Of a stretch of DNA of 64,000 nt, positions 6,607 to 61,481 are shown one piece after another (position 1 is the first letter of the stretch; each line of letters opens with the position of its first letter). A program made the translations under genes and the position numbers. Source of the DNA: Celeribacter baekdonensis. Its GTDB lineage: Bacteria > Pseudomonadota > Alphaproteobacteria > Rhodobacterales > Rhodobacteraceae. The stretch covers positions 3,472,001-3,536,000 of the forward strand of contig NZ_CP028475.1 of NCBI RefSeq assembly GCF_003047105.1, read 5' to 3'. A model generated the notes under the pieces. That model was not told where the DNA came from. It did not search any database and worked only from the letters and a program-made list of their open reading frames with translations.

Positions 6607-6847
6607 GGATGAATATTGAAGTTTTGCGTATTGATCAGGGACAGGACATTTGCAGCCTTGGACACAGCGGTTGCGGCGTGTTTAGCAAATGCCTTTAGCG
6701 CATTATCTGCTGTGGTCATTGTTGCTGGGCCGAAGCCCTCGCCTCATTCTGAGATCTGAAGTTTGTGGGTATGATCACGCAGGCGCGCCTGTAGCGCTTA
6801 CTTTGGAGTTGGAAGAGCAACCCGCCTCCTGATGGGGGAAGGGCAGG
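6607..6847. other. No gene seen between glpK and the IS1182 remnant
   Basis: Frames are interrupted on both strands and no transposon end, hairpin or conserved reading frame was recognised. It is probably degraded sequence at the left edge of the island that begins with the transposase remnant. Confidence 0.5.
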
Positions 6848-7269
6848 TATGTTTGCCCGGAAGGCGACCCCTTGAAACAGGTCCGTCGAAATTATTCCGA
6901 TCCACCCTGTGGCCCGACCGGCAAAGGCGTCGCCAAGTCTCAGGCCCTAAAACACACCGGTCATGCCTGCCTATAAAAATGAAATGCTGCCCCAAAGCCG
7001 ATGCGCGCAAGATTACCCGCGCAGACCACGAAGATGACCGACAGGTCGCCCGCGATATTGCCAAGACCAAGCAGTATGCGATCTCAATGAGGTTGCGAAA
7101 GGAGGTTGAGGTGCTCTTCGCACAACGCAAACGCCTCCTTGGGCTGGGACGATTGCGATTGCGCGGGCCATACGGTGCAAATGACGAATTTCTCCTCTCT
7201 GCAACCGACCAAAACCTCCGCAAGCTGGCCAAGACCTTTCCGGCACCGCAGCAAACGCGAAAAGCCTGA
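6848..7269 (+). pseudogene. Remnant of an IS1182-type DDE transposase (C-terminal part)
   Basis: Two frames joined by a frameshift near 6970 read like the C-terminal third of an IS1182-family transposase. The first, from 6848, reads YVCPEGDPLKQVRRNYSDP and ends ALKHTGHACL-stop. The second continues IKMKCCPKADARKITR, AKTKQYAISMRLRKEVEVLF, LGRLRLRGPYGANDEFLLSA and NLRKLAKTFPAPQQTRKA. The N-terminal two thirds and both IS ends are not recognisable. The fragment marks the left side of the island carrying the peptidase-helicase pair. Confidence 0.8.
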
Positions 7270-7772
7270 CAGCAAAGGCGCTCGCGCCCTATTTAAGGGC
7301 TGAATTTCTGCACGCGCAACATGGTGCTTTTCAACAGAATCGGCTCGTTTCCGCCCTTCGCTGCGTTCTCAATGACCGGTAGCTTTGGCGGAACTCCCAA
7401 TATGCGTGCTCAGTTCCTTTCAGATCACGCGGCCGATATTTTTCAGAATCAGGGTTGATCGCATGGGGATATGCAGCTCATGCCTTCGCGATAATCGTTG
7501 CCGTCTCAGTGCCGCCCCGCGGGACAACCTCGACTATTGCTAACACAGGCTATTGATATTGTAGCATCCGTTTGCATGTGCCGTACTTTTGGTGCTGCGA
7601 TGTGGCCAGTGTCACGAGAGCGGTCCTTCGCGGTAAAGACACAGCGATCATACTTGACCGTCCATACGCGCGCAGCGTGTACCAGCCGGATCAATGCCGA
7701 CCGGCTGCGCCTGTATTTCGAAAACTCGGGCTGGATTGGTCCCGTTGTCACCGCTGAAAAGCGCCTTGCCGC
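7270..7772. other. About 500 bases with no supported gene
   Basis: Short open frames occur on both strands (for example 7498-7776 +) but none reads like a known family or has a convincing ribosome site. The base order looks like decayed coding or IS sequence. The promoter of the peptidase-helicase pair should lie at its right end; I could not identify clear -35/-10 hexamers. Confidence 0.5.
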
Positions 7773-9053
7773 TTGATGATGGGGCGTCAATTTCCTTTTG
7801 CTATGACTTGGCCAAGATTGTACCGTTCCCCTTGGCGACCATCACGTCCAGTTCTTGCACGAGTAGAGCTTTTGTCCGAGATTCCCCCCTTTTTGTATTA
7901 CCACAATGCACTTGCCGATTTTTTGCAGCGCGAGGAGGCTGATATCTGGGCTTGGTTTGCCTCTGATAAGCTGACAGAACAGGCCTTTGATGAGAACCGG
8001 CTGATGCTGCTGAAAAATGCAGTGCGATTGGATGCGGGGTCTCATGACACCTTGTTTGCCGCCGCCGCCGAGGTGAAAGAAGCGTTGGACATTGACGTGC
8101 CGCTTAGTCTTTATCAGGGCACTGGGCAGCACCGGAATGCTGCGTTGGTCTATACCCCCGACGAGGTCAACATCATGTTCGAGGGTGAGACGCTTGATAT
8201 CCTCAGCGACGCCGAGCTGCGCTGCCTTTTAGGCCACGAGATGGCGCATTACCTGCACAAGACCCGCGAGGACGGGCGCTATTTCACAGCCGACCGGATG
8301 CTGGGTTGGATGTGCGGTGAAAACGGTGCGCATCCTGCGCATCTGCAGTCACTTTGGCTGTCGCAAATTTATCAGGAAATCTTTGCCGACCGGGTCGGAT
8401 TTATGGTTTGTGGCGACCGGGATGCGGCGATTTCGCTGTTGATCAAAGTGGGGTCCGGGCTGAAAAAGTTTTCGGTCGAGACGTATCTGCGACAGGCGGC
8501 GGAGGCGCTTGATTTGAATAAGAAGGACGGCTCGAGCGGGGTGTCGCACCCTGAGACATACGTCCGCGCGATTGCATTGGCCGATTGGGCCAGGGACAAA
8601 GAGGCGGCTGATGTGCGTCTGCCGGAATTGGTGGAAGGAGAAGTCCGATTGGAGCGGCTGGACCTGCTTGCGCAGCGTAAACTGACCGATCTGACACGTG
8701 CGATGATCCAGCAATTTTTGGCCGCTGACTGGGTGGAATCCGAAGAGGTTGAGGCGCACGCCCGTGCGTTTTTCCCCGATTTAGACATCACATTGAGGCC
8801 GCCTGAAGATATGGCGCTGACCGCCCTTTCCGAGACGAGCGATGATGTGAGGGATTACTTGGCCTCGGTTCTGCTTGATTTTGCGGCGGCTGATCCTGAC
8901 CTTGAAGATGAACCCCTGCTCAAGGCGATGGAATTTGCCCGCCAACATGGATTGGAGGATGCGATCACGCCGCGCATCACCCAGGACCTCGGTGTGCCCC
9001 CCAAAAAGCTGGCCGCATTGCAGAAAGCCATCAAGGAGGTAGCACATGATTGA
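7773..9053 (+). CDS. M48-like zinc metallopeptidase, island gene coupled to helicase
   Basis: Predicted soluble zinc-dependent endopeptidase, 426 residues, with no signal peptide or membrane segment. The HExxH zinc motif reads HEMAH at residues 155-159 (in LLGHEMAHYLHKT) and the third ligand is in EIFADRVG (E202, D206), the ExxxD arrangement of family M48. The last 200 residues match nothing I know. The start is uncertain: 7773, 7803 (MTWPRLYRS) and a TTG at 7872 all lack a good ribosome site, and the first 40 residues are rich in P and R. Its end overlaps the helicase start by eight bases, and a strong AAGGAGG for the helicase lies inside its 3' end, so the two form one unit. Inferred role: regulatory or effector protease of a defence-like module. 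Confidence 0.8.
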   Translation: MMMGRQFPFAMTWPRLYRSPWRPSRPVLARVELLSEIPPFLYYHNALADFLQREEADIWAWFASDKLTEQAFDENRLMLLKNAVRLDAGSHDTLFAAAAEVKEALDIDVPLSLYQGTGQHRNAALVYTPDEVNIMFEGETLDILSDAELRCLLGHEMAHYLHKTREDGRYFTADRMLGWMCGENGAHPAHLQSLWLSQIYQEIFADRVGFMVCGDRDAAISLLIKVGSGLKKFSVETYLRQAAEALDLNKKDGSSGVSHPETYVRAIALADWARDKEAADVRLPELVEGEVRLERLDLLAQRKLTDLTRAMIQQFLAADWVESEEVEAHARAFFPDLDITLRPPEDMALTALSETSDDVRDYLASVLLDFAAADPDLEDEPLLKAMEFARQHGLEDAITPRITQDLGVPPKKLAALQKAIKEVAHD

Positions 9054-12000
9054 TGCGGCCGAACAAGGGTTCTTTGAGCTTCTGCATGCGTGGAATGAAG
9101 CGCATTCCATCGGGAATGAGGATTTGTTGGCTGCAATTCTGCCCTTGATGCAACAGGTCGCAGAGGCGCACGAGGCCGGGCAGGTGGCTCCGCTGTTTCC
9201 TTTGCGCAAGCTGAAAGTGGATCATGGCCATTTGTTCTTTGTTCAGACAGATGTAGAGGCACCGGCATCAATCCACGCGGTCAGCGGTCGCAGGGACGTG
9301 CTCGCCAAAAGTGGCATCAAGGTGGTCAGCGAGCTCACAGTGACCTCGGATGATGCGTCCGGAACCGAGGTGCATGACGCCCGGGTCGCAGATGATGCCG
9401 TAGCCACCCCGCGTTTTCTGACGGAATACCGATCATGGGAGGTCGAAGCGGGCCATCATGACCCGATCACTGATATCTATGGGCTGGGTATGATCCTTGG
9501 TTCGCTGGCAACCGGCCTTGATTTTCGGCAGAAGGATCAGCTGGAAACGTTTATCCGGTATCGCGGCGATCTGGCCAGTTTGAACAACCGGCTGAGCCCT
9601 GTGATCTGTCGCGCGATTGAGCGGATGACCGAACTGGAAAGGTTTGATCGTGCACAAGATGTACCCACACTGATCCGCGCGTTTGAAAACCACCGTATGA
9701 TCGGATCGGTCTTTGAGAATGAACTGACGACCAGCGCCGCATTCGGGGCAGAGGCGGATTTGCCAAAGGGTGAGTTGCTGAAGCGGTTGCGCGCCCGCTT
9801 ATATGATATGACCCGGCGCAACCGGTTGATTTATCACAAGCCGGTCTCGACGGAATTGAACCTGACGGAAACATCCGTGCCGTTGGTGATGAATTTTCAG
9901 GCCATCAAATCGGAAGATCTGTTCACCGCAGACGCCCTCGCTATGCAAAAGTTGTTGTCAGGCAGAGAGATCGCCTTGCGGGATTATATCCGGTTTGAAG
10001 ACATGCAATTTGCACCAGCGGTGCTGTCCAAGCTCCGTTCGGAAAGTGCGAGGATCGCGCGGGAATATGGAGCAGCGCCTTTGCGATTGGTGCCTGTGTT
10101 TTTGCGGTGGTATGACCTCAAGAACGATCCCCACACGCCGATTTCGTCGCCCCTTTTGTTGCTGCGGACCGAGTTGAAGCGGCGCAAGGGTGTGAAGGAT
10201 GTGTTCACCCTACAAGCTCTGGATACAGTGGCCGAGGTCAACCCGGCCTTATCCTTTGCGCTGGAAAAACTGTTCGGAATCAAGCTGCCAACAACGGTGG
10301 ATATGTCCCAGCCGGATGCGCTGCGTGATCTTTATCGGCTGATTGAAACGCAGATCCTGTCCAGCGAACCCGGTGTGCACCTCGAATACGCCGACAAACC
10401 GCGCATCAAGGTGCTGCACCAAAAGGTGCGGCGGCGCCTGGACCAGTTCAACAAGCGCCGTGTTGGCATGGTCAAAGGCAAACGGGCGCGGTCCGGGATA
10501 CGATATTCCTATGATCACCCGGGGTACAACCCGCTGGGGCTGCAACTTTTCAAGGAATACGTCACTCCGGCACAAGCCCCAAATCAGGCCGTGATGGGGC
10601 GACCGTTGCCGCGCATGTTCAATGCATCTCATATGGTTGAACCTGCTGTGACAGAGCGTGAGGCGACCACGTTTTCGGCCGCGCAGGAGACCGATGGGCG
10701 GTTTAACTGGAGCTTTGATCTTTGCTCGGTCACCCTCGCCAATTTCAACTATCGCAAGATGTCGCTGGTGCGCGACTATGATGCCATGCTGGCTGGTGAA
10801 CTGTCGCCCAATGCGGCCTTTGATCTGCTATTTGATGACCGCAGCTATGATGTCGGCGGCATTCCCATGCTGCCCAAGCCGGAACATCGCTATCCCGTCA
10901 TCGAAATGGACCCCAGTCAGGAAAAGTCTGTTTTGAATGCGCGCAGTGGCGAAAGCTATGTCATTCAGGGCCCGCCTGGCACTGGAAAATCTCAGACCAT
11001 CACCAACCTGATTGCCGACTTTATCAGTCAGGGCAAACGTGTGCTCTTTGTGTGTGAAAAACGCGCGGCCTTGGATGTGGTGTTCAACCGCCTGACGGGG
11101 GTGGGTTTGGGCGCGCTGTGCAGTCTTGTCCACGACAGCAAGCAAAATAAACGTGAATTCATTGAGGAACTTGATGAGATTTACACCCGCTGGACAGAAG
11201 AAGACCGGCCAAAGACAATGGCCATTCTGACACAGGAACGGACTGCGCTGCTACGGCGTGTTTCGGAGGCGCTTGCCGATGTACGCGTGCATATCACGGC
11301 GATGTCGACCGCAGCGGTTGGTACTGATGAGGCGCTTTATGGGGTCATTGACCGTGCGCTGAACGCACATCCCCCCGATCTGGGCGATGATGATCGGGGG
11401 GCTTTGCCTGATCTGGCTGTTTGGCTGGAACATGAAGATGCGGTAGACCGCGCGCTGAACGGGACCAAAGGATTGGCGGGCGGGCAAAGCCTGTCAGAAC
11501 GACCCGAACGTTTGTTGGTCCCTGCGCTTTGGGGCGATGACGATGCTCTGGATCAGGTGCCGCAACGGGCCGCAAACCTGGCGTCGCGTGCTACGCGTCT
11601 TAGCGGGGCAGAAGCTGATCTGTTTGGGGGTGTCACGACAGCCGGGGCCGCTTTCGCGCAAGTTCGCTTTGCCGCGCGTGTCGCACCGATGGCTGAGGTC
11701 GGTCAATTGGGCCTGTTGGACCCTGACAGCCGCGAAAGCCGCCTGTTCAAAGGCGATATGCGTCAGGTCGACGACAAAAGACGCCTATTGGCTGAAGCGG
11801 TGCAAAAGGCATCCGCCTGGACTGACAAGCTGACCCAAGAGGAAACCAAAACAGCACTGCGGCTGGCGCAGGACAAGGAAGGTAAGTTCCTGTCGTTCCT
11901 GTCTGGCCCTTGGCGGCAGCTGAAGAAAACAATTGCGGCGCGCACCCGGACGGCGGATGCAGCAATTGCGCCCACAGCCGTCGATTTGCTGTTGCTGCTT

Positions 12001-14169
12001 GATACTGAGCATGCGTCCAGAGAGGCCTTGGTTGAAACCGAACGGCAAACCGCTGGGCGTTACGGTTTTAACGATTTTGCAGCCCTGTCGGACCTTGTTG
12101 CAGAGCGCGCCGCAGGCCGGATGGTGGACGGCGCTGCTGCCGATCCGATCCTTGCCAGCGTGGTCAGCGACCCGGCGGGGACGGAACGTCAGGTACTGGC
12201 GTTGGCGCACCACGCCCCGGTTATAGAAGGGCTGTTGGAGGATGCGGCGGGACTGATTGATGGGTTGGATACATTGGCCTTGGCGGATCTGGCCCCGGCA
12301 CTGGATGCGCTGGCACAAAGCGGGCCGCGTTTGCGCGACCTAAAGTTCATGTTGCAGCCGCTGGCGGATGCGCCTCTATCAATCTGGCGTTGTCTGCGCA
12401 GCTTTGATTTGCCGACAGACCAGCTGCACGCGGCCATCTTGTCAGAAACGGTTCGGCGCAGCGTGATCCAGACCCCCGGCCTATCGGCCATTGACCATGC
12501 CATGCTGGATCACGCCCGCGCCAAGATCGCGGACAGCCGCAAGGCATTGCAAAAGGTCAACGCCAGCCTGCTGGAGTTGCGTGCGATGGAAAATTTTGAT
12601 GCCCATATCGCGCTCACCGCTGAAATGGATCGCAATCTGTCGATGGAGGATCGGGCGCGCAAATCATCCTATGCCAATGCGCGCCGGGCGTTGGAGCATG
12701 AATTCAAAAAGACCCGCGCTTTCCGGTCTCCGCGCGAAATGCTGGACGGCCCAGCCGGAGCGCTGATCCCTGATATGAAACCGATCTGGCTGATGAGCCC
12801 TCTTTCGGTGGCCGATGTGCTGCCGCTCGACTCCGATCTGTTTGATGTGGTGATCTTTGATGAGGCATCGCAAATCCCCGTTGAGGACGCGGTGCCGACA
12901 GTCATGCGCGCTCCGCAGATCATCGTTGTGGGAGATGAGATGCAACTGCCGCCGTCGAAGTTCTTCGGCAGCGGTGATGCGGCAGAGGAATTCGATGATG
13001 CTGACGAAGATCTGAATTTTGAACTGGATCAGGACAGTTTCCTGACCCTTTCGGCAGAGCGTTTGAAGTCCACAATGCTCAGTTGGCACTATCGGTCGCG
13101 CAGTGAAGAGCTGATCAGTTTCTCCAATCGCGCATTCTACGGCGGGCGTTTGTTGACAATTCCATCGGTGCGTAACCGGCAAGAGGACCCTGAAATCCAT
13201 GTGGCGGATGCGGGCGTCCCCCCGTTGAGCGCATCCGAAGTTTTGGCCCGTCCGATTTCCTATCATATGGTCAAGGGCGGTGTTTATGCCCTGCGACGCA
13301 ACGCCGAGGAGGCCCGCTATATCGCCCACGTCCTGCGCGACATCCTCGCACAGGACAGTGGCAAGACCATTGGCATCGTTGCCTTTTCGGAGGCTCAGCA
13401 ATCCGAGGTTGAAACCGCGCTGAACGAATTGGCGCGCACTGACGAGGGCTTTGCCCGTCGACTTGATGCGGAATATGAACGCGAAAAGGATGGCGAATTC
13501 ATCGGACTGTTCGTCAAGAACCTTGAGAATGTGCAGGGCGATGAGCGTGACATTATTTTGCTATCAATCTGTTACGCTCCGCCGGCAAGTGGCAAAATGC
13601 GGATGAACTTTGGCCCCATCAACAAAGTCGGAGGCGAAAAACGCCTGAATGTTATCTTTTCGCGTGCGAAGGAAAACATGATCGTTGTGTCTTCGATCAC
13701 ATCCGAGCAGGTCACCAACGATTACAACGCTGGGGCTAACGCGCTAAAGACGTTCCTGCGGTATGCGCAACTTGCCTCAACCGGGGACGGGCCTGGCGCA
13801 GATATGGCGCTTAAGGCGGTATCGGGCAGTACAGATCAACGCGAGAAGCCGGGGAACGTGGCCGCAGAGCAGATTGCCGCTGCCTTGCAGGCGCGCGGAT
13901 GTTTTGCCGTGGTCAACCACGGCATGTCCCGCTTTTGCGTCGACGTGGCCGCCCGCCGCACGGATGAACCCGACTTTAAACTGGCTATCCTGATTGACAG
14001 CAAAGAGACATATGCCAGCAATGCCACCTTGGAAGTTCTGACCGAACGGGCCATTTTGCTGGAGGCTTTTGGGTGGACGACTGTGACTGTTACAATGCGG
14101 GAATGGAAAAGCGATCCGACCAAGATTGTCGAAGTGCTTGCTGCGCATTTGGGAGTCAATTTCGACTGA
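9046..14169 (+). CDS. Kinase-like / DUF4011 / SF1 helicase / PD-(D/E)XK nuclease-like fusion
   Basis: Protein of 1707 residues. Residues about 35-215 resemble a degraded protein-kinase C-lobe: VAEAHEAGQV...LFFV in the place of the catalytic loop without HRD, YRSWEV like the APE region, TDIYGLGMILGSLATG like helix F, then LSPVICRAIERMTELERFDR. From about 245, LLKRLRARLYDMTRRNRLIY is DUF4011-like. The SF1 (COG1112-type) helicase has Walker A GPPGTGKS at 642-649, Walker B FDEAS at about 1271 after a long insertion, GDEMQLPPS, WHYRSRSEEL, VQGDERDI and LNVIFSRAKE. The C-terminal 105 residues resemble the MTES_1575/Vsr-like nuclease fold, with D1633 and D1651-x-K1653 as candidate active-site residues. 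Strong ribosome site AAGGAGG. Known: DUF4011 helicase-nucleases and kinase-COG1112 helicases occur in phage-defence loci. Inferred: a defence ATPase-nuclease. Confidence 0.85.
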   Translation: MIDAAEQGFFELLHAWNEAHSIGNEDLLAAILPLMQQVAEAHEAGQVAPLFPLRKLKVDHGHLFFVQTDVEAPASIHAVSGRRDVLAKSGIKVVSELTVTSDDASGTEVHDARVADDAVATPRFLTEYRSWEVEAGHHDPITDIYGLGMILGSLATGLDFRQKDQLETFIRYRGDLASLNNRLSPVICRAIERMTELERFDRAQDVPTLIRAFENHRMIGSVFENELTTSAAFGAEADLPKGELLKRLRARLYDMTRRNRLIYHKPVSTELNLTETSVPLVMNFQAIKSEDLFTADALAMQKLLSGREIALRDYIRFEDMQFAPAVLSKLRSESARIAREYGAAPLRLVPVFLRWYDLKNDPHTPISSPLLLLRTELKRRKGVKDVFTLQALDTVAEVNPALSFALEKLFGIKLPTTVDMSQPDALRDLYRLIETQILSSEPGVHLEYADKPRIKVLHQKVRRRLDQFNKRRVGMVKGKRARSGIRYSYDHPGYNPLGLQLFKEYVTPAQAPNQAVMGRPLPRMFNASHMVEPAVTEREATTFSAAQETDGRFNWSFDLCSVTLANFNYRKMSLVRDYDAMLAGELSPNAAFDLLFDDRSYDVGGIPMLPKPEHRYPVIEMDPSQEKSVLNARSGESYVIQGPPGTGKSQTITNLIADFISQGKRVLFVCEKRAALDVVFNRLTGVGLGALCSLVHDSKQNKREFIEELDEIYTRWTEEDRPKTMAILTQERTALLRRVSEALADVRVHITAMSTAAVGTDEALYGVIDRALNAHPPDLGDDDRGALPDLAVWLEHEDAVDRALNGTKGLAGGQSLSERPERLLVPALWGDDDALDQVPQRAANLASRATRLSGAEADLFGGVTTAGAAFAQVRFAARVAPMAEVGQLGLLDPDSRESRLFKGDMRQVDDKRRLLAEAVQKASAWTDKLTQEETKTALRLAQDKEGKFLSFLSGPWRQLKKTIAARTRTADAAIAPTAVDLLLLLDTEHASREALVETERQTAGRYGFNDFAALSDLVAERAAGRMVDGAAADPILASVVSDPAGTERQVLALAHHAPVIEGLLEDAAGLIDGLDTLALADLAPALDALAQSGPRLRDLKFMLQPLADAPLSIWRCLRSFDLPTDQLHAAILSETVRRSVIQTPGLSAIDHAMLDHARAKIADSRKALQKVNASLLELRAMENFDAHIALTAEMDRNLSMEDRARKSSYANARRALEHEFKKTRAFRSPREMLDGPAGALIPDMKPIWLMSPLSVADVLPLDSDLFDVVIFDEASQIPVEDAVPTVMRAPQIIVVGDEMQLPPSKFFGSGDAAEEFDDADEDLNFELDQDSFLTLSAERLKSTMLSWHYRSRSEELISFSNRAFYGGRLLTIPSVRNRQEDPEIHVADAGVPPLSASEVLARPISYHMVKGGVYALRRNAEEARYIAHVLRDILAQDSGKTIGIVAFSEAQQSEVETALNELARTDEGFARRLDAEYEREKDGEFIGLFVKNLENVQGDERDIILLSICYAPPASGKMRMNFGPINKVGGEKRLNVIFSRAKENMIVVSSITSEQVTNDYNAGANALKTFLRYAQLASTGDGPGADMALKAVSGSTDQREKPGNVAAEQIAAALQARGCFAVVNHGMSRFCVDVAARRTDEPDFKLAILIDSKETYASNATLEVLTERAILLEAFGWTTVTVTMREWKSDPTKIVEVLAAHLGVNFD

Positions 14170-14472: not shown

Positions 14473-14736
14473 ATGAAGACCCGCAGAGACACTGAGGCGC
14501 AGATTCTTGCGATCCTGCGACAGGCCGAAGGCGGTGTGGCGGTGGCCGAGTTGTGCCGTGAGCATGGCATGAGCAGCGCGTCGTTTTACAAATGGCGGGC
14601 GAAGTATGGCGGCATGGATGCGTTTATGGTCAGCCAGATGAAGGCCATTGAGGAAGAGAACCGCAGGCTGAAGCGAATGTATGCGGACCTGAGCATGCAG
14701 GCCGATTTGTTGAAGGAAGCCCTCGGAAAAAAGTAG
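14473..14736 (+). CDS. IS3-family OrfA (transposase N-terminal HTH protein)
   Basis: 87 residues. The helix-turn-helix part ([38 protein letters not shown]) binds the terminal repeats. It is followed by a leucine-zipper region ([20 protein letters not shown]) used for OrfAB multimerisation. It ends GGA-AAA-AAG-TAG, so the stop directly follows the A6G frameshift site. Length and sequence are typical and there is no damage in this part. Confidence 0.9.
14727..14733 (+). other. Programmed -1 frameshift site AAAAAAG
   Basis: A AAA AAG lies directly before the orfA stop. Slipping back one base enters the orfB frame ([12 protein letters not shown]), the known way IS3 elements make OrfAB. A downstream stem (GGGCCATCTC / GAGATGGCC, 14739-14765) could stimulate slippage. 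Confidence 0.75.
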
Positions 14737-15559
14737 TTGGGCCATCTCAGCGACGAGAGATGGCCGCAACAGCGGTGGAGCGGCGCGGGGTCAGCGTTGC
14801 GCTGGCCTGCCGGGCTTTTGGTGTCAGCGAGACCTGCTATCGCTACAGCCACTTCTGAGGGATGAGAACGAGCAGATCGCTGATTTGCTGACCGGTCTGA
14901 CGGATGCCCGCAAGACTTGGGGTTTCGGGCTATGTTTTCTGCATTTGCGCAACGTGAAGGGGCATCCATGGAACCACAAACGGGTTTACCGGATCTACTG
15001 CGAGCTTGAACTGAACCTTCGGATCAAGCCGCGTAAACGGCTGAAGAGGGACAAGCCCGATGCGCTGGCGGTGCCAGAAGCACCGAATGTCACCTGGTCG
15101 ATGGATTTTATGGCCGACCGGCTCGGCGATGGTCGTGCCTTTCGGCTGCTGAACGTCTTGGATGATTTTAACCGTGAGGGCCTCGGCATCGAGGTCGACT
15201 TTTCCTTGCCCGCCGAGCGTGTGATCCGAAGCCTTGAGCGGATCATCGAGTGGCGCGGAAAACCCGGGACCATTCGGGTCGACAATGGCCCCGAATACAT
15301 CAGTGAAAAGCTGATGAAATGGGCCGAGAAACATGGGGTCACCATCCAGCATATCCAACCCGGCCAGCCTCAGCAAAACGCTTACATCGAGCGCTACAAC
15401 CGCACCGTCAGGCATGAGCGGCTCGACCAATCCATCATCGAAAGCATCGAGGAGGCCCAAGATCACGCCACTCAATGGTTATGGACTTACAACAACGACC
15501 GCCCCAACATGGGCATCGGCGGCATAACACCCGCCATGAAACTGAAAATGGCCGCATAA
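14733..15559 (+). pseudogene. IS3-family OrfB integrase, frameshifted
   Basis: DDE integrase (rve) half of the IS3 transposase. The frame entered from the A6G site reads [20 protein letters not shown] to CYRYSHF and stops at TGA 14856-14858. The rest is in the adjacent frame from 14852: [33 protein letters not shown] (first catalytic D), VDNGPEYIS (second D) and [19 protein letters not shown] (catalytic E), ending [12 protein letters not shown]. One base lost near 14852 explains the break, so catalytic residues remain but are out of frame with OrfA. Confidence 0.85.
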
Positions 15560-34625: not shown

Positions 34626-34946
34626 TCACAGCGCCAAAAGCACGTTGCCGTCTTCGATTTTGATCTCGAAAGTGGCGGTCTGACCCTCATCTGCACCTTG
34701 TGCCGCGCCGGTCTCAAGCGAGATCACCCAATTGTGCAAAGGGCAGGTGACACAGCCGTCATGCACGATTCCTTGGCTCAGCGGGCCATTTTTGTGCGGG
34801 CATTTGTCTTCGAGGGCAAAGACCTGATCGTGAGAGGTGCGAAATACCGCGATGCTCATGTCGCCGTTTTTGACACAGCGTGCACCTTGGCGCGGAATCT
34901 CGGTCAACGGGCCGATGTTGACCCAAGTTTTGGTCTGGACGTTCAT
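34626..34946 (-). CDS. nirD: Nitrite reductase small subunit NirD
   Basis: 106-residue Rieske-like subunit of assimilatory NADH nitrite reductase. It has the full ligand set CPHKNG ... CPLHNW (Cys-x-His, then Cys-x2-His), so a [2Fe-2S] cluster is plausible, unlike NirD proteins that lack these residues. It starts inside the last codons of nirB (four-base overlap). The convergent trkH gene ends 20 bases from its stop. Confidence 0.93.
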   Translation of the reverse strand: MNVQTKTWVNIGPLTEIPRQGARCVKNGDMSIAVFRTSHDQVFALEDKCPHKNGPLSQGIVHDGCVTCPLHNWVISLETGAAQGADEGQTATFEIKIEDGNVLLAL

Positions 34947-37390
34947 TCCGCCGCCTCCAGTTTGCTGATGTTGATCGGGTTAAATTCATGCGCGTCTTTG
35001 CCACTGACAAACTCGGCCCATGGGTCCACTTGCGCAAAGCTCTGAGCATAGGCAAAGCGCGCATTATAGGCTTTGCGCTGGTCCAGATCGTCCAAAATCA
35101 CCTCGCGGATATGATCATATCCAAGCCGATCGGCCCATTTGTAAATCCGTTCCAAATAGAACCCGGTCTCGCGGTAATATTGCGTCAGTGCGCCGACCAC
35201 TTCGATCACGTCTTCTTCGGTCGGAACGGTGCCGAGTTTGGTTGTGCCTTGGATATGAAGCCCGGCGGCCCCGCCATAGAGCACCTCATAGCCGCTATCG
35301 ACACAGACAATGCCGATATCCTTACAGGTGCTTTCCGCACAGTTGCGCGGGCAACCTGACACGGCGAGTTTGAGTTTCGCCGGAGACCAGGCGCCCCAGA
35401 GATATTGCTCAAGTTTGATGCCCAAACCCGTCGAATCTTGGGTGCCAAAGCGACACCAATCAGAACCGACACAGGTTTTCACCGTGCGCAGGCCCTTGGC
35501 ATAGGCCGCCCCGGAAATCATGCCCGCGGCATTGAGATCGGCCCACACAGGGATCAAATCCTCTTTTTTGACGCCCAAAAGGTCGATCCGCTGTCCGCCG
35601 GTGACTTTGACGGTTGGGATTTCATATTTGTCGGCCACATCGGCAATGGCGCGTAGCTCGTCCGGTGTGGTGATGCCGCCAAACATCCGGGGCACGACAG
35701 AATAGGTGCCGTCTTTTTGGATATTGGCGTGGACGCGTTCGTTGATGAAGCGCGATTGTTGATCGTCGACATACTCGCCCGGCCAATCCGCCACGAGGTA
35801 ATAATTCAACGCCGGGCGGCATTTGGCACAGCCTTCTGGTGTGGTCCATTCCAGCGCTTGCATGATGGCCGGGATGGATTTCAATCCCTTGGCTTTGATC
35901 AAGCGGCGGACATGGCCGTGGCTGTGGGTGGTGCAAGGGCACATGCCTTCGGAGGCGGGCAATTGAAACGCATCGCCCAAGGTGAGCGCCATGACATTTT
36001 CGACCAGCCCGGTGCAAGTGCCGCAAGAGGCCGAGGCTTTGGTGTGGGCGCGCACATCGGCAAGCGAGGTTAGGCCTTTGGCTTGGATCGCGGCCACAAT
36101 CGTGCCTTTGGTGATGCCATTACAGCCGCAAATCTCCGCATCATCCGACAGGTTCGCCACTGCGGCCAAAGGGTCAGCCCCCGCGCCGCCCTGATAGGCC
36201 TGACCAAAGATCAATGTCTCGCGCATCTCAGAGATGTCTTCGCCGGATTTCAACAGCTCGTTGTACCAGCCACCATCGGCCACATCGCCATAAAGCACCG
36301 CGCCGATGATCTTATTGTCCTTGAGGATCACGCGTTTATACGTCCCGCGCATCGCATCGCGCAGGACAATGTCCTCGCGCCCGTCACCTTCGGCAAAATC
36401 GCCCACGGAGTAGAGATCACAGCCGGTGACTTTCAGCTTTGTGGGGGTTTCAGCATGGGCAAAGGCCATCTCTGACGCGCCCGCCAAATGATCCGCCGCC
36501 ACTTTCGCCATACGGTAAAGCGGTGCGACAAGACCATAGACCAAGCCGCCGACCTCAACACATTCCCCGACCGAATAGATGTTCGGATCGGAGGTTTTCA
36601 TCGTTGCGTCTGTCACAATGCCCCGATTGACCTCAAGCCCGGCCTCTTGCGCCAGTTGCACATTCGGACGGATGCCCACGGCCATGACCACAAGCGAGGC
36701 GTCAATCACCCGCCCATCGGCCAGTTCCACACCCTCAACCCGGTCTTTGCCCAAAATCTGTTTGGTGTTGGCCTCGCACAGGACTTCGATCCCGCGACCT
36801 TCCAATTCCTTTTGCAACAGATAGCCCGCTGCTGTGTCGAGTTGGCGTTCCATCAACGTGGGCATCAGGTGAATGACCGTCACCTCCATGCCGCGCTGTT
36901 TCAAACCCGCCGCCGCTTCCAGCCCCAAAAGCCCGCCGCCAATCACAACCGCGCGCCCGCCTTTGTCGGAGGCTTCGATCATCGCGCCGGTGTCGTCCAG
37001 ATCGCGGTAGGCCAAAACGCCGGTCAAATCATGCCCCGGCAAAGGGATGATAAACGGGTTCGACCCGGTGGCGATCACCAGCTTGTCATAGGCCACTTCG
37101 CGCCCGGTCTCAGAGACGACTTTGCGCTCGTTGCGGTGAATTTCGGTGATCTTTTCGCCCTGATGCAGCGTGATCCCGTGTTCCTCATACCAGCCTTCGC
37201 CATGGATGATGATATCGGCATAGGTTTTTTCGCCCGACAGAACCGGCGACAGCATGATCCGGTCATAGTTCACGCGCGGTTCGGCGTTGAAAATCGTCAC
37301 GTCATAGGCGTCTGTCACCTCAAACAGATGTTCCAACATCCGCCCAGGCGCCATCCCATTTCCAACGATCACAAGGTGTTTCTTCGACAT
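34943..37390 (-). CDS. nirB: Assimilatory NAD(P)H nitrite reductase large subunit NirB
   Basis: Reduces nitrite to ammonium in the cytoplasm; 815 residues from ATG 37390 (MSKKHLVIVGNGMAPGRMLE). N-terminal FAD/NAD domains (VVIGGGLLGLEAAAGLKQRG, VVMAVGIRPN) are followed by a BFD-like [2Fe-2S] region (ICGCNGITKG, CGTCTG), then the sirohaem domain with the 4Fe-4S motif VGSDWCRFGTQDSTG ... SGCPRNCAESTCKDIG. It overlaps nirD by four bases. The 210-base leader carries paired hexaloop hairpins, so control by a NasT-type antiterminator is likely. Confidence 0.96.
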   Translation of the reverse strand: MSKKHLVIVGNGMAPGRMLEHLFEVTDAYDVTIFNAEPRVNYDRIMLSPVLSGEKTYADIIIHGEGWYEEHGITLHQGEKITEIHRNERKVVSETGREVAYDKLVIATGSNPFIIPLPGHDLTGVLAYRDLDDTGAMIEASDKGGRAVVIGGGLLGLEAAAGLKQRGMEVTVIHLMPTLMERQLDTAAGYLLQKELEGRGIEVLCEANTKQILGKDRVEGVELADGRVIDASLVVMAVGIRPNVQLAQEAGLEVNRGIVTDATMKTSDPNIYSVGECVEVGGLVYGLVAPLYRMAKVAADHLAGASEMAFAHAETPTKLKVTGCDLYSVGDFAEGDGREDIVLRDAMRGTYKRVILKDNKIIGAVLYGDVADGGWYNELLKSGEDISEMRETLIFGQAYQGGAGADPLAAVANLSDDAEICGCNGITKGTIVAAIQAKGLTSLADVRAHTKASASCGTCTGLVENVMALTLGDAFQLPASEGMCPCTTHSHGHVRRLIKAKGLKSIPAIMQALEWTTPEGCAKCRPALNYYLVADWPGEYVDDQQSRFINERVHANIQKDGTYSVVPRMFGGITTPDELRAIADVADKYEIPTVKVTGGQRIDLLGVKKEDLIPVWADLNAAGMISGAAYAKGLRTVKTCVGSDWCRFGTQDSTGLGIKLEQYLWGAWSPAKLKLAVSGCPRNCAESTCKDIGIVCVDSGYEVLYGGAAGLHIQGTTKLGTVPTEEDVIEVVGALTQYYRETGFYLERIYKWADRLGYDHIREVILDDLDQRKAYNARFAYAQSFAQVDPWAEFVSGKDAHEFNPINISKLEAAE

Positions 37391-37600
37391 AATGGCACTC
37401 CATCTCAGAACGCGGGTCGCATCATGCGAGCCCAGTTTCGTTTCAGTGAGAATGCAGCGCCATTGCCGCGTGTCCCGGTCTTTGGAACAAAAGGTCGGAT
37501 CGCCACTCTGCGATCGCCTGTGAATCAGCTTCACGCTTTGCTTTTGGGAGAGGCCCCTGAATTAAGCAATTCAGAACCCAAAGTTTTGCCTGAGTTTTGG
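37391..37600 (-). promoter_or_regulatory. nirB leader with two A1/G4 hexaloop hairpins (ANTAR/NasT target)
   Basis: On the minus strand, GATCGC-AGAGTG-GCGATC (37515-37498) and GCGGC-AATGGC-GCTGC (37469-37454) are hairpins with six-base loops having A at position 1 and G at position 4. That pair is the recognised RNA motif for ANTAR antiterminators such as NasT. An additional stem, CTGAATT-GCTT-AATTCAG (37574-37557), is near the 5' end. A later stem, GGGCTCGCAT/ATGCGACCC (around 37400-37425), could be the terminator, though it lacks a good U run. The structure was read by eye and not folded. Confidence 0.7.
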
Positions 37601-37606
37601 GTCAAA

Positions 37607-37636
37607 ATTATAGAGTGCCCGGATTTTCAGCGTCAA
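37607..37636 (-). promoter_or_regulatory. Near-consensus sigma-70 promoter of nirBD
   Basis: On the minus strand, TTGACG (37636-37631), an 18-base spacer and TATAAT (37612-37607). The predicted start, about 37600, gives a leader of about 210 bases, as expected for transcription that is controlled by antitermination. Confidence 0.75.
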
Positions 37637-37695
37637 ATGCGGGCGTAACTGTCGCTGCGCTTAGAAATGATGCAGTGCAGCAAGGCCGGACGTGC

Positions 37696-40125
37696 CTAAG
37701 TTCCGCGTCGTTTTGCCCGCAGAGTCGGGTCTGCTTCGGTCGGGTCTTCGGGCCAAGGGTGGCGCGGGTATTGTCCACGCATATCCTTGCGCACATCGGC
37801 GTAGGAGCGTTTCCAAAACCCCGGCAAATCCATCGTGACCTGTACCGGACGATGCGCCGGAGAGGTTAAAACCACCTTGAGTGGCACGCGGTTTGGCCCG
37901 ACTGTCGGGTGGGTTGTGGTGCCAAAAAACTCTTGAATACGGCCCGTCACCTCAGGGTGTTCGCCGGCATAATCAATCGGCAATTTGCGCCCGACCGGGC
38001 TGACGAACTGTCCTGGCACCTCGACATCCAACCGCTGCATCTGACCCCAATCAAGCGTCATACGCAGGGCTTCGGTGATGTCGAGTGCGCGCAATTGCGC
38101 CTCCGTGCGCGCGCCTTTTAGATGCGGCAAAAGCCATGTCTCAAGGTTTTGCATCAACGCCGCCTCAGAGAGATCGGGGAACGTTTCGCCCATCAACCGC
38201 ACCCGTGCGGCAAAGCGTTTGGCGGCGTCACCCCATGGCAGGCCAATTTGGCGCAGCCCGTCCAATGCGCCCCGCGCCATCGCCTCGGGCGGGGCCTCTT
38301 TCCACTGCCGATCCTCCAAAACCAGCGCGCCAAAACACTCCTGTTTGCGCGCCACCACCCGCTTTTCGCGCTTGTCCCATTGGCATATTTCGCGCCACGC
38401 GATTTGATCGCCGTAAAGCGCGCGCAGCTCCGCCTCAGTGAGTTCCACCGCTTGCCGGATTTTTGCCTCACGCGGCGCGCCGTCCGTGTCGGTGACGACG
38501 ATCAACCGGAGGCCAGCCATCTGATCACCATCGTCCATCACAGCACCCTTGCCGCCTGATAGGATATAGCGCGCCTGATCGCCCTTGCGGCGCAGGCCGA
38601 TCCGATCCGGGTAGGCCAATGCGGCCATTTCGCCCAGGCTCATTTTTGGGCCGTCATTCGCACCCGTGCGCAGCCGCTTGGCCTCTTGTTTCACCCGCTC
38701 GATCACGCCGCGATCCATCGTGCCAGGCGTGCCTTGGCCGGTCGCGCGCAGCGCGCGGATGCGCAGCGCCAAATCAACACCCGCACCGCGCAAAGGATCG
38801 CGTTCGTTCAACAAAGCCGCCAAATCCGCGGCCTGTACCCCCGCCAATTGCAGCATATGTGCAAGTCTTGGATGCAGCGGCTTGGTCGCCAGGGCCTTGC
38901 CATGTGCAGTGATCCGGCCTGTCGCGTCCAAAGCACCAAGCCCGTGCAACAGCGCGCGCGCTTCTGCCAAAGGCCCCGGTGGGGGCGGCGTCAAAAACGA
39001 AAGGTCGGATTCGGAGGCGCCCCAAAGTGCCAATTCCAAAGCCAATCCGGTGAGGTCCGCCGTTTCAATCTCGGCGGGGGCAAAGGCGGGCATCGCGCCT
39101 TCTTCGCCCTTGGTCCAGAACCGGAAGCAAACGCCCTCGGCAACCCTCCCGGCGCGGCCTCGGCGTTGTTCGGCCTCGGCCTTTGAGGCGCGTTCGGTGA
39201 TCAACCGCGACATGCCTGAGGCCGGATCAAACCGTGCCCGCCGCGCCCGGCCCGCGTCCACCACGATGCGCACATCTTCGATGGTCAATGAGGTTTCGGC
39301 GATCGAGGTGGCCAACACGATCTTGCGGCCCGTTGCGCAAGGTGCAATCGCCGCACGTTGGTCGGCGAATTTCATCGCTCCAAACAGGGGACGCACCACG
39401 CAATCGGTCGGCACGCGCCCGGTAAGCCGGGCTTCAACCCGGCGGATCTCGCTTTCGCCGGGCAAAAAGACCAAGGCCGATCCGCTCTCCTGTGTGACCG
39501 CCTCGATCACCAAATCCGCCAATGCGTCTTCAAAGCGGCGCACTTTGGGCGTGGGAGTCTCAAGCCAGCGGGTGTCGACCGGAAAGGCCCGGCCTTCGGA
39601 TCGGATCACCGGGGCATTGTCCAACAGCGCGGCCACAGGATCTGCGTCCAAGGTGGCCGACATGACGATCACCACAAGATCGTCGCGCAACACCTGACGC
39701 AATTCCCATGTGAGCGCCAAACCCAGATCGGCATTGAGCGAGCGTTCGTGATATTCGTCAAAAATCACCGCGCCGACGCCGGCCAATTCTGGGTCGCTTT
39801 GCAACATCCGGGTCAGAATGCCTTCGGTGACAACTTCAATCCGGGTGGATTTCGACAGTTTGGTATCGCCGCGCATCCGGTATCCGACCGTTTGCCCCAC
39901 AGCCTCGCCCAGCGTTTGCGCCATGCGTTCGGCGGCAGAGCGGGCCGCCAATCGACGCGGTTCCAACATCACGATCCGGCCCGTGACATGCGGCAAAAGC
40001 GCCAAGGGCACGCGGGTGGTTTTGCCTGCACCGGGCGGGGCCATCAACACCGCCCGGCCGGTGTCTCGCACGGCACAGGTCAGCGCATCCAGCACATCAT
40101 CAATCGGGAGCTTCGGTTCAAACAT
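37696..40125 (-). CDS. hrpB: ATP-dependent helicase HrpB
   Basis: DEAH-box helicase of about 809 residues from ATG 40125 (MFEPKLPIDDVLDALTCAVR). Upstream in-frame codons lack similarity. Walker A is at residues 29-37 (APPGAGKTTRVPL), the DEYH box in AVIFDEYHERSLNADLG, SATLDA is motif III, and VLATSIAETSLTI and RAGRVAEGVCFR are motifs V and VI. The HrpB C-terminal domain ends GFWKRSYADVRKDMRGQYPR, then HPWPEDP, characteristic of this family. The role is not well settled; it is thought to act on RNA. Confidence 0.94.
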   Translation of the reverse strand: MFEPKLPIDDVLDALTCAVRDTGRAVLMAPPGAGKTTRVPLALLPHVTGRIVMLEPRRLAARSAAERMAQTLGEAVGQTVGYRMRGDTKLSKSTRIEVVTEGILTRMLQSDPELAGVGAVIFDEYHERSLNADLGLALTWELRQVLRDDLVVIVMSATLDADPVAALLDNAPVIRSEGRAFPVDTRWLETPTPKVRRFEDALADLVIEAVTQESGSALVFLPGESEIRRVEARLTGRVPTDCVVRPLFGAMKFADQRAAIAPCATGRKIVLATSIAETSLTIEDVRIVVDAGRARRARFDPASGMSRLITERASKAEAEQRRGRAGRVAEGVCFRFWTKGEEGAMPAFAPAEIETADLTGLALELALWGASESDLSFLTPPPPGPLAEARALLHGLGALDATGRITAHGKALATKPLHPRLAHMLQLAGVQAADLAALLNERDPLRGAGVDLALRIRALRATGQGTPGTMDRGVIERVKQEAKRLRTGANDGPKMSLGEMAALAYPDRIGLRRKGDQARYILSGGKGAVMDDGDQMAGLRLIVVTDTDGAPREAKIRQAVELTEAELRALYGDQIAWREICQWDKREKRVVARKQECFGALVLEDRQWKEAPPEAMARGALDGLRQIGLPWGDAAKRFAARVRLMGETFPDLSEAALMQNLETWLLPHLKGARTEAQLRALDITEALRMTLDWGQMQRLDVEVPGQFVSPVGRKLPIDYAGEHPEVTGRIQEFFGTTTHPTVGPNRVPLKVVLTSPAHRPVQVTMDLPGFWKRSYADVRKDMRGQYPRHPWPEDPTEADPTLRAKRRGT

Positions 40126-40343
40126 GGGCCCGTTATGAGCCAAAGCGGAGCGGGCGAAAAGGGGGTCTGTGGGCGAAGGCGCGCGTGATTTCAGGCCGGG
40201 CTGCGTGGACCTGTGTCCCTGTGCAGCGTGCGCAAATCCCGCGATAGGGCTGGACATCGCCCTGTCAGAGCGGGCAAAACGGGTCTGCAAAACCGAGCTG
40301 AGGCGACTTTTAAGCGCGCGCCACATCTTATGGCAGATCAAAG

Positions 40344-58172: not shown

Positions 58173-61100
58173 CTAATAGTCCTTTTCAAAATAAACCCCA
58201 ACGCCGGTGTCGCCGGTCGAGGACACGGACCCTTTGACGGTCACCTTGTCGGTGGCGTCAAGGTTGAGGTTGATCACCGATTTGCCATCACTGTCGATGG
58301 TCACGTCGGTGTAGATTTTATCCGAAATATATTTGCCGAGCTTCAACGAGCTGCCGCCCTCTTCTGAGGTTTGAAGATCAAGATCGTCGAGGCCAAAACT
58401 GTTGCGGATTGAACCGACAAGCCCGCCACCGCCGCCGGTTAAGGTCGCCACAGCCGAGGCCATTTGTGCCGCTTGCAGAGCGGAAATTTGGCTCAGACCA
58501 CGACCGAACAGCAGTTGAGAGAGGATTTCTTCTTGCGGCAAGGTGGGCGAGGAGCTGAGCGTCAAGGCCAGCGCACTCAACGGCCCTTCGGTGACCAGTT
58601 GCACGTTCAGATCAGGGGTTTGCGTTTCCGCCACAAGCCGCACCACGGGGTCCAATTCACCCTGTAAGGTCAGCGTGCCCTCTTTCATCACAATGCGTTT
58701 GCCCAAAAGCGACAAGCGCCCGCGGATCAGCGAAAACTGACCCACCGGGATCACATCTTGGGTCGTGCCGCGCAGGCGCAATTTTCCGCCCAGTTCCGCA
58801 TCCAAGCCCCGACCGCGAATGAAAATCTGGTTTGGGGCGGCGATGGTGACATTGAGCCCATAGGACGCCCCCGGTCCGCCATTGCGATCCGTGACCACAA
58901 GTCCCGCGCGCTTGCGGGTGGTGAGCACAGCGCTGGTTTGGCCGGTGTGGGTGATCTCGGGGATGTCGCCGCTGCCGCCAAGGCCGGAGGCCGACACAGT
59001 GATGTCGGTGCGGCCCAATGTAAGATCCCCGGCAATGGCAGCCCCCCCAGCCAGTGGGCCGGTGATGGCCAGACTGCCATTCAAAGAGGTGCTATAGAGC
59101 GTTGGGTCCACCAAGGTTAGGCCATTGAACGCCATCGTTAAATCGGCGGGAACTGTGCCCGAGAGGCCCAATTGACCAGAGGCGGAGATGCCGCCGCCAC
59201 TGTCGGCATTGGTCACCACGTCGATCTGGGCGCGTTCGCCCGAAAGCGTGACCGTGCCACGCTCCACCGTCAGAGCGAGCCCTGCGTTTGAGACCACCAC
59301 ACGGGCGCCGGGGGTGACTTGAATTTGTCCTGACAGCGACGAGAGCGCGAGCGGGCCGTTGAGTGAGAGGTCAAAGCCCGCGTTGCCTTGGGTCAGTGCG
59401 GCGGTGGTGAAACGGTTGGACAGGCCCAAAGGCGCGGTGCCTGTCAGCGCGAGGTTGGCTTGGCTCGCGTCTTGGGCGAGGGTGCCGGTGACGCGCGCGG
59501 TCGAACCGCCGGGACCGGTCATATTGGCCTCAGTTTGCCACGGCGCTGTTGCGCTTGAGCGGGACACATCGGCGGCAAGGGTCAGCGGACCGGAGAGGCC
59601 AACACCAAGGCGCGCCACGTCATCGAGACGGGCAGAAAGCGTCAGCGCCCCGGCCTCAGACGACAGCGTGCCTTTGGCGGAGGCGGTCACAGCCCCCGTC
59701 GTCATATCCGCTGCGCGCAGGGTCAGCCCAGTTTCGTCGCGTTTGGCAGAGAGGCTCACCGTGCTGGAGCCATTGGTCAGTGCGTCCACTTGCGCGATGC
59801 CAAAGCGCAGATTGCTGCCTTTGGCCTCAGCGGTCAGATCGAACATCCCACTCAGAGGCGCATAGCTGCCTGAGCCTGTGGCCTGAACGGCCCCTGCAAG
59901 ATCAAGGCCAGAAATGCGGGCAAATCGAGCCAGACGCGGGGAGTCGAGGCGCATGTCGCCGGTGAATTCAAGCCCTGCGTCCAACCCGGCCAGCCGACCT
60001 TGGACCGTGACGGTGGTTGCATCGGTTTTAAGCTCGACTGTCTTAAAGACGATGTCCTGCCCCTCTTGCCATGTCAGTTGGGTCAAGAGGCTGGGGTTGG
60101 CGCCAATGGCGTCTTGCACAGCAGGGTCATCAGAGACGAGACCGGTCACGGCGGCTTCAATCTTGGCGCTCACGGCGCCCAAACTGGTCAGGCCACTGTC
60201 ATCCGTCAGCCGCGCGATGGTGCCGTCCGCATTGATCGCCGCTTTGCCAAGGCGCAGCCCGTCTTGCGTATAGCCATCGACATCAATCAGCGCGGTCCAG
60301 CCGTCATCTGTGGCGGCATCATAATTGGCAATGATCAGGGCTTTATCGACCATGCTACGCGCCGAGCCAAAAGGCAGCAGCGTCGGGCGGCCATCAGGGC
60401 TTTTGAGCGACCCGGAGAGCGCGAAGGATTGCGGCAGGCCATCGGCGCCAATCTTGGCTGCACCGACCATCGACACCGCTTGGGTCGAGAGGTTGAATTG
60501 CTCAAGATCAAACCCGCCTTCAGGATAGGACAGGCCGCGCGCTTGCAGTGTTGAGGAGGGGCCAAAGAACCGCGCGTATTCGGCGCTGAACAGCGGGGTG
60601 AGATCGCCGGAGAGATCAGCCGTAAACGCACGTGGGGCAGGGGCATCCGGGGCGTTTGGATCGGGGTTAGCTTTGAGGGCCACTGTGCCGGTGAGACGAT
60701 CTTTGCCCTGTGTTGCCAAGGCGATATCGGCGGTGAAATCATCCAAAGGGCCCGCGCCCTTGGCCGTGAGAGACAGCTCAGGCGCGCCCGGTAGATTGGC
60801 CAGTGTCGCGATCAGGCCACCCGCCCCTTCGGTCAGGGCCAGATCAAGATCCAACACCTCGGTCGGACCATCAAAAGACACATCAACGGTAAAGGCACCG
60901 TCTGCGGCATCCAGGCGCTGGATGTCCAAGGTCGCAGCCCCCGATCCATCGGCCAAATTGGCGCTGCCGGCGAGGCTCAGATCCACCGCTTTGCCCAGTT
61001 TCAACACCGGAGCTCCGAGGTGGACACGCTTGGCCTCAATCGCGCCGATGTCGATCGAAACCGGCAAGTCCGGCAATGAAAATGGCTTGGCCTCGGGCGA

Positions 61101-61481
61101 GGGAGCCGTGGTCGTGGCCTCTGCCACGGGCAGACGGTCAAATAGGATTTCACCCGCCGTGATGCGGTTGATTTCGACCCGACCGGAAAAAAGCGCAGCC
61201 CGGCTCCAGTCCAGTTCGACATCGCGCAGGGTGAACCACACGCCGGTGTCATCGGCGATGGTCAGTTCGTCGAGCGTGGCGTTGGAGGACAACAGACCTT
61301 TGAACCCTTCGATGCGAATGTCGCGGCCCGCGCCTGATAGGTTGTCTTCCAAAAAGCCAACGATCACCGACCTGTCTCGGGCGGTTTGTGTGGCGTCCGT
61401 TTGTGTCGAGTCGGTGCTGTCCTGCGCCATCAGCGCCAGAGGGATGCAGATGGCGGTTATGACCGGGAGAAATTTGTTCAA
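58173..61481 (-). CDS. tamB: Translocation and assembly module protein TamB
   Basis: 1102 residues. N-terminal signal anchor MNKFLPVITAICIPLALMAQ, an acidic spacer, then a long beta-helical AsmA-like region and the conserved C-terminal TamB domain (DUF490): VGQFSLIRGRLSLLGKRIVM, LPQEEILSQLLFGRGLSQIS and the end VKGSVSSTGDTGVGVYFEKD-Y. It bridges the periplasm and, with TamA, moves lipids or outer-membrane proteins. Its stop TAG is made of TA from the genome plus G from the IS5 end, so the protein looks complete. It overlaps tamA by four bases. Confidence 0.93.
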   Translation of the reverse strand: MNKFLPVITAICIPLALMAQDSTDSTQTDATQTARDRSVIVGFLEDNLSGAGRDIRIEGFKGLLSSNATLDELTIADDTGVWFTLRDVELDWSRAALFSGRVEINRITAGEILFDRLPVAEATTTAPSPEAKPFSLPDLPVSIDIGAIEAKRVHLGAPVLKLGKAVDLSLAGSANLADGSGAATLDIQRLDAADGAFTVDVSFDGPTEVLDLDLALTEGAGGLIATLANLPGAPELSLTAKGAGPLDDFTADIALATQGKDRLTGTVALKANPDPNAPDAPAPRAFTADLSGDLTPLFSAEYARFFGPSSTLQARGLSYPEGGFDLEQFNLSTQAVSMVGAAKIGADGLPQSFALSGSLKSPDGRPTLLPFGSARSMVDKALIIANYDAATDDGWTALIDVDGYTQDGLRLGKAAINADGTIARLTDDSGLTSLGAVSAKIEAAVTGLVSDDPAVQDAIGANPSLLTQLTWQEGQDIVFKTVELKTDATTVTVQGRLAGLDAGLEFTGDMRLDSPRLARFARISGLDLAGAVQATGSGSYAPLSGMFDLTAEAKGSNLRFGIAQVDALTNGSSTVSLSAKRDETGLTLRAADMTTGAVTASAKGTLSSEAGALTLSARLDDVARLGVGLSGPLTLAADVSRSSATAPWQTEANMTGPGGSTARVTGTLAQDASQANLALTGTAPLGLSNRFTTAALTQGNAGFDLSLNGPLALSSLSGQIQVTPGARVVVSNAGLALTVERGTVTLSGERAQIDVVTNADSGGGISASGQLGLSGTVPADLTMAFNGLTLVDPTLYSTSLNGSLAITGPLAGGAAIAGDLTLGRTDITVSASGLGGSGDIPEITHTGQTSAVLTTRKRAGLVVTDRNGGPGASYGLNVTIAAPNQIFIRGRGLDAELGGKLRLRGTTQDVIPVGQFSLIRGRLSLLGKRIVMKEGTLTLQGELDPVVRLVAETQTPDLNVQLVTEGPLSALALTLSSSPTLPQEEILSQLLFGRGLSQISALQAAQMASAVATLTGGGGGLVGSIRNSFGLDDLDLQTSEEGGSSLKLGKYISDKIYTDVTIDSDGKSVINLNLDATDKVTVKGSVSSTGDTGVGVYFEKDY

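Follow-up and report, generated by a model that had tools for sequence, protein, structure and literature searches.

A paired M48 peptidase and DUF4011 helicase-nuclease in Celeribacter baekdonensis as a candidate bacterial anti-invader unit

A 64,000-nucleotide stretch of the Celeribacter baekdonensis genome (contig NZ_CP028475.1, positions 3,472,001 to 3,536,000; hereafter the window) carries two adjoining genes on the plus strand, encoding an M48-family zinc peptidase and a protein that combines a kinase-lobe-like part, DUF4011, a superfamily 1 (SF1) helicase and a nuclease-like domain. The two open reading frames (ORFs) run from 7773 to 9053 (426 aa, TTG start) and from 9046 to 14169 (1707 aa, ATG start), and the 8-bp overlap between them (9046–9053), claimed by an earlier sequence-only reading of this DNA, was confirmed. 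We are close to certain that the peptidase and the helicase form one functional unit.

The peptidase gene probably starts at the TTG codon at 7872 (7872–9053) rather than at 7773, because relatives begin about 33 residues later (near SEIPPF) and residues 1–33 of the predicted model had predicted local distance difference test (pLDDT) values below 50. An in-frame stop upstream of the later start in the related locus L003 also fits 7872. Residue numbers below follow the long ORF. The protein exceeded the Pfam cut-off for M48 (PF01435; 27.4 bits, cut-off 20.3), all 32 members of a peptidase alignment matched Pfam M48 (E of 1 or less), and an M48 fold was found, which bears out the HEMAH/EIFAD peptidase of the sequence-only reading. 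H155, E156 and H159 of the HEMAH motif (residues 155–159; 8235–8249) were kept in 81 of 81 aligned peptidases, as were E202 and D206 of the EIFAD motif (8376–8390), and by analogy with M48 enzymes E202 would be the third zinc ligand. An HPE motif (residues 259–261; 8547–8555) was nearly invariant (H 80/81, P 81/81, E 80/81). The C-terminal domain (8664–9047) was all-helical in the predicted model and collinear with the Pfam TerB domain of the single-chain fusion described below. We call this tail TerB-like by position only, since TerB was not among the Pfam families of the 32 stand-alone peptidases and the profile comparison of the tails alone was weak (E 0.035). Searches with the peptidase gave no match among solved structures by sequence profile at E 0.01 and none among PADLOC models at E 0.1, and NCBIfam returned only HtpX (17.9 bits, cut-off 369).

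The larger gene (9046–14169) matched the Pfam families AAA_11, AAA_12 and DUF4011 and, just under its cut-off, MTES_1575, so that the helicase with DUF4011 and a C-terminal nuclease-like domain was recovered as claimed. Residues 1–220 (9046–9705) aligned to the kinase C-lobe alone and Pfam showed no kinase family in the protein; the proposed kinase-like part therefore holds for a C-lobe and no further. DUF4011 occupied residues 251–403 (9796–10254; 40.4 bits), and each residue of the Walker A motif GPPGTGKSQ (642–650; 10969–10995) and of motif II, DEASQ (1272–1276; 12859–12873), was present in 73 of 73 aligned helicases. The MTES_1575-like nuclease domain (1608–1702; 13867–14151) scored 36.4 bits against a cut-off of 38.2; four of five scanned relatives were over the cut-off and one (L007) under it at 36.3. 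Within this domain D1651 was kept in 73/73 and D1633 in 69/73 proteins. Position 1653 was variable (K in 4/73; P commonest, in 18), so the suggested catalytic pair D1651/K1653 fails in its lysine half. A WGR-type C-terminal motif was detected in at least 46 of the 73 helicases, including L063, L048 and L012; this is a motif count that missed at least one look-alike tail (L019), and Pfam confirmed WGR in three of five helicases scanned. WGR is a DNA-binding module of poly(ADP-ribose) polymerases (PARPs). The tail changed state seven times on the helicase tree. In sequence searches of solved structures, the window helicase matched SMUBP-2, UPF1, SEN1-type and similar helicases, and the L063 helicase additionally matched 2ra8 (WGR part).

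The pairing of the two genes was examined by scanning genome contigs with the peptidase alignment; the best 80 of 106 relatives were used and the 26 weaker ones left out. Judged by their record titles, these 80 span alpha-, beta- and gammaproteobacteria, Planctomycetota, Verrucomicrobiota and Myxococcota, and one bears the label Oceanobacillus. At 78 of the 80 loci the helicase follows downstream of the peptidase on the same strand, and in the two others (L039, L068) the contig ends right after or inside the peptidase gene. The co-occurrence in unrelated genomes proposed as a check on the sequence-only reading was thus observed. At L031 a gap of 869 bp separates the genes, and at L005 and L029 the helicase frame is broken. 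The genes overlapped at 60 of 79 junctions (78 loci plus the window), 41 of these by 4 bp; gene starts were set by rule, and the overlaps at L024 (-307) and L070 (-40) are artefacts of that rule, another count giving -4. Protein distances of peptidase and helicase across 73 genomes correlated at 0.96, the largest value in 2000 permutations being 0.147; this reflects common inheritance, genome ancestry included, and is not proof of contact.

The reverse test gave the same picture. A peptidase profile (A1) and a profile of the helicase N-terminus (A2), searched separately at E 1e-20 or less, matched the identical 7 of 249 genomes in the genus of G329 and the identical 20 of 100 genomes of Variovorax, the genus of G398. 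Among 398 Pseudomonadota genomes, the helicase profile scored 737–805 bits in G000, G329 and G398 and 55 or less in 18 others, and the peptidase profile scored 396–597 bits in the same three genomes and 109.5 in G205. The remaining 176 of 180 peptidase matches reached 34 bits or less, and we read these as generic M48 proteins. No full-strength peptidase or helicase without its partner was found in the 249, 100 and 398 genomes profiled. The genus of G329 is probably Pseudomonas, its pair being closest to that of Pseudomonas cedrina (L061), and a 20-kb stretch of G398 matched Variovorax sp. Root473 (L073) at 100% identity. In one copy (G495:C1:442819-445675) the peptidase was split over two frames and the helicase open frame had just 887 residues, which looks like joint decay of the two genes.

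The match in G205 proved to be a single chain. This 2073-residue fusion, identical to protein P0064 of Gilvimarinus agarilyticus, contains M48 (109–238; 22.7 bits, cut-off 20.3) and TerB (302–397; 26.1 bits, cut-off 24.4) together with DUF4011, the helicase and MTES_1575 (31.9 bits, under the cut-off). Its first 460 residues, used as a query, matched 217 proteins; among the 120 of these listed, 106 had 1850–2100 residues, and Pfam labels included M48 in 39 and TerB in 31. In 70 aligned members the two His and the Glu of HExxH were kept in 67, 70 and 69, in that order, and the Glu ligand in 70/70. The peptidase cores of the two-gene and fused forms were clearly related by profile comparison (probability 99.9, E 4e-32). 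Against the 398 genomes, the first 460 residues matched G205 and the three genomes with the two-gene form, and no other (E 1e-10 or less). The fusion in G205 (L113:1-20000) was flanked on one side by Gabija GajA and GajB (616 and 456 bits; GajA 175 bp away) and on the other, about 4 kb off, by AbiEi and AbiEii (360 and 367 bits). Proteins P0064–P0183 make up a large M48-TerB-DUF4011-helicase-MTES_1575 fusion family; the few names given are gamma-, beta- and myxobacteria, and no system name was seen among them.

In the window, the pair sits in a strain-specific insert between insertion sequence (IS) pieces. Of 20 genomes in its genus, one carried the peptidase, the source genome itself. By blastn, the segment 6612–15597 (no strand assigned) was missing next to either flank in G001 and G002, the relatives that resemble the window most closely in these flanks (91–92%). 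In both genomes the flanks are on separate contigs, and the insert may be a rearrangement junction too. Within it, a transposase remnant (DDE_Tnp_1_6; 6832–7269, plus strand; 41.9 bits) lies upstream of the pair and IS3-type transposase ORFs (HTH_Tnp_1 and rve; 14473–15559, plus strand) downstream, and Pfam supported both mobile pieces of the earlier reading, the upstream one being of putative IS1182 type. The nearest relatives, L003 and L004 (Pseudophaeobacter), matched window 1–24000 by blastn only over the two-gene cassette (7705–14136, plus strand), which was 80% identical at the DNA level, and their surroundings differed. Between G329 and L061 the pairs reach up to 96% identity, but the megablast alignment covered just about 6.9 kb of 20 kb, the flanks not aligning. 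The absence from G001 and G002, the cassette-only match in L003 and L004 and the pair-only match of G329 and L061 showed that the pair moves as a unit. Close to the pair in L003, an ORF (L003:16702-17421) resembles, by its motif, the start of a serine recombinase. Among flanking ORFs, the names dnaE, LysR and serine recombinase were assigned by eye.

A place for the pair in a larger operon was considered and rejected, as the 842 ORFs that flank the pair at 81 loci (the 80 plus the window) included no family present in more than nine; of the two families that reached nine, one was confined to Variovorax and the other was adjacent (<1.5 kb) in two loci. Relatives of the helicase were present in 407 plasmid records and of the fusion in 432, never covering 80% of either query. 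In four regions holding such distant plasmid-borne relatives, the gene table, itself incomplete, showed no annotated M48 within 6 kb. Plasmid DUF3320 helicase genes in L122 and L123 adjoin an annotated DNA repair exonuclease gene as well as genes for AAA/YhaN ATPases, another recurrent neighbourhood. Elsewhere in the window, ordinary genes at 34943–40341 and 58173–63253 encode a NirB-like nitrite reductase, an HrpB helicase, TamB and an Omp85 protein.

Together, these results pointed to an obligate unit of M48 protease and helicase-nuclease working as an anti-invader system, to which we assign a probability of about 0.58. Judged from sequence, its established parts are the dedicated pairing, the conserved protease, helicase and nuclease-Asp residues and the related single-chain form. 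An anti-phage role is likely because of the kinship with known defence proteins, the patchy distribution and the one Gabija/AbiE island. In the proposed mechanism, the SF1 helicase, aided in many relatives by the C-terminal WGR domain, would load on aberrant or incoming DNA, and the helicase-nuclease would move along the bound DNA and cut it. The tethered protease, which carries the helical TerB-like tail, may then digest proteins on that DNA or cleave a target once DNA is engaged, with the kinase lobe serving as a platform of the helicase-nuclease. Proteolysis in cis on the DNA appeared somewhat more likely than a freely acting effector protease, and that the substrates are DNA-bound proteins is a guess held below one half. 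More tentatively still, the two-gene and single-chain forms might represent a new class of immunity in which a helicase-nuclease carries a dedicated metalloprotease along invading DNA, so that recognition of the DNA steers proteolysis towards proteins that are DNA-bound or infection-specific.

Several observations weigh against the anti-invader reading. The flanks of the two-gene form contained few defence families: 138 ORFs of 130–700 aa within 6 kb (38 loci, from the 57 listed of 80) matched 38 PADLOC families, each with one or two members, in a survey run without a control set, for which neither enrichment nor depletion is claimed. The same ORFs matched 138 Pfam families, each likewise in one or two, and the flanks were mostly ordinary. 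The proposal of a new or variant defence system in the sequence-only reading is partly supported, by the kinship to Hhe, ProA and PDC-S37, the patchiness and the fusion between Gabija and AbiE, and finds little in the two-gene flanks; the island itself comes from G205, the one fusion whose surroundings were examined. Peptidase matches were absent from the plasmid (72,556 records), phage (50,697) and viral-contig collections. The best Foldseek match of the peptidase model in the PDB was weak (E 0.019). The helicase tree (FastTree only, long branches flagged) stayed fairly close to bacterial classes, with 12 changes against a minimum of 10. Variovorax loci shared surroundings over 14–18 kb, a stable chromosomal place, and in four of them (L015, L041, L044, L047) the pair stands beside an ORF that, read by eye, is presumably dnaE.

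This stable place is also what an accessory role in repair of protein-blocked or crosslinked DNA would suggest, with SPRTN-like adduct removal by the protease and resection by the helicase-nuclease. SPRTN is a DNA-tethered crosslink protease, and SprT-like, its family type, was matched by 19 of the 32 peptidases with the threshold relaxed to E 1 or less (best 2e-6), which also speaks for the DNA-tethered protease of the anti-invader reading. The WGR-type tails fit such a role too, as does an annotated 'DNA repair exonuclease' adjoining the distant plasmid relatives in two of four regions. We nevertheless consider repair unlikely, given the very patchy occurrence (7 of 249 genomes), the closest named families, which are anti-phage, and the fused relative between Gabija and AbiE. 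Abortive infection, in which DNA sensing by the helicase-nuclease activates the M48 protease to cleave host or phage proteins in trans, is more doubtful again: a dedicated protease with a chain of its own, as the two-gene form has it, and the possibly regulatory kinase-lobe and TerB-like parts speak for it, but the conserved nuclease Asp residues mean that cutting of DNA could suffice as the effector, and in the fusion protease and helicase share one chain. That the genes are unrelated and adjoin through chance or clade inheritance could draw on the shared ancestry within the 0.96 correlation; the pairing in 78 of 80 loci, the identical genome sets and the single-chain form contradict it in the samples tested, and it is extremely improbable. 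The link between protease and helicase was unbroken in every sample tested, across several phyla. Should the pair defend, as the anti-invader reading holds, proteolysis would join the activities of DUF4011 helicase-nucleases such as Hhe and ProA; should it act in repair, bacteria would have an equivalent of SPRTN and other crosslink proteases tethered to DNA.

Among known systems, the closest named families were anti-phage. Hhe (NF042953; also a PADLOC model), a one-gene system built on a DUF4011 protein, matched the helicase-nuclease with 424 bits (423.7) in NCBIfam and 294 in PADLOC, but the window protein was far under the 2000-bit NCBIfam cut-off and has an M48 partner. ProA (NF058533, 'anti-phage protein ProA') scored 616.2 bits, with its best stretch at residues 612–1701, under a cut-off of 1500; ProA scores were 506–701 for L063, L048, L015 and the fusion, and the four relatives tested followed the pattern of the window proteins. 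The PADLOC single-gene candidate PDC-S37 scored 609 bits (profile 213–1337 of 1550; PADLOC shows no cut-off for it), but its best stretch, 550–1701, leaves out residues 1–549 and it includes no M48. The peptidase was unmatched in PADLOC and the helicase was under the NCBIfam cut-offs, in line with the sequence-only reading, which placed an M48 partner outside Hhe-like proteins and Mokosh type I. Mokosh type I has a kinase domain and a PLD nuclease partner; an SF1 helicase is shared (132 bits to one MkoA model of MkoA/MkoB). The kinase-like part here resembles a kinase C-lobe only, and neither gene matched a PLD family in Pfam (E 0.01 or less), M48 standing in its place. Shango also brings a TerB-like domain together with a helicase and, in the available part of its description, consists of three genes including an ATPase and a DEAD/DEAH helicase, with no M48 mentioned there (PMC10250203); the cassette of the window differs in having two genes and no flank family in more than nine of 81 loci. 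An M48 gene lies inside the functional anti-phage island RptR-RMS-DarTG-M48 of enteropathogenic Escherichia coli (EPEC), where, according to the accessible portion of that report, it adjoins type I restriction-modification and DarTG and not a DUF4011 helicase, with no test of that M48 described there (PMC12255303). In the open PubMed Central (PMC) literature, the scope of the search, no description of an M48 partner for a DUF4011 helicase was recognised. The M48/helicase pair is probably a bacterial machine for immunity or DNA handling that has yet to be described.

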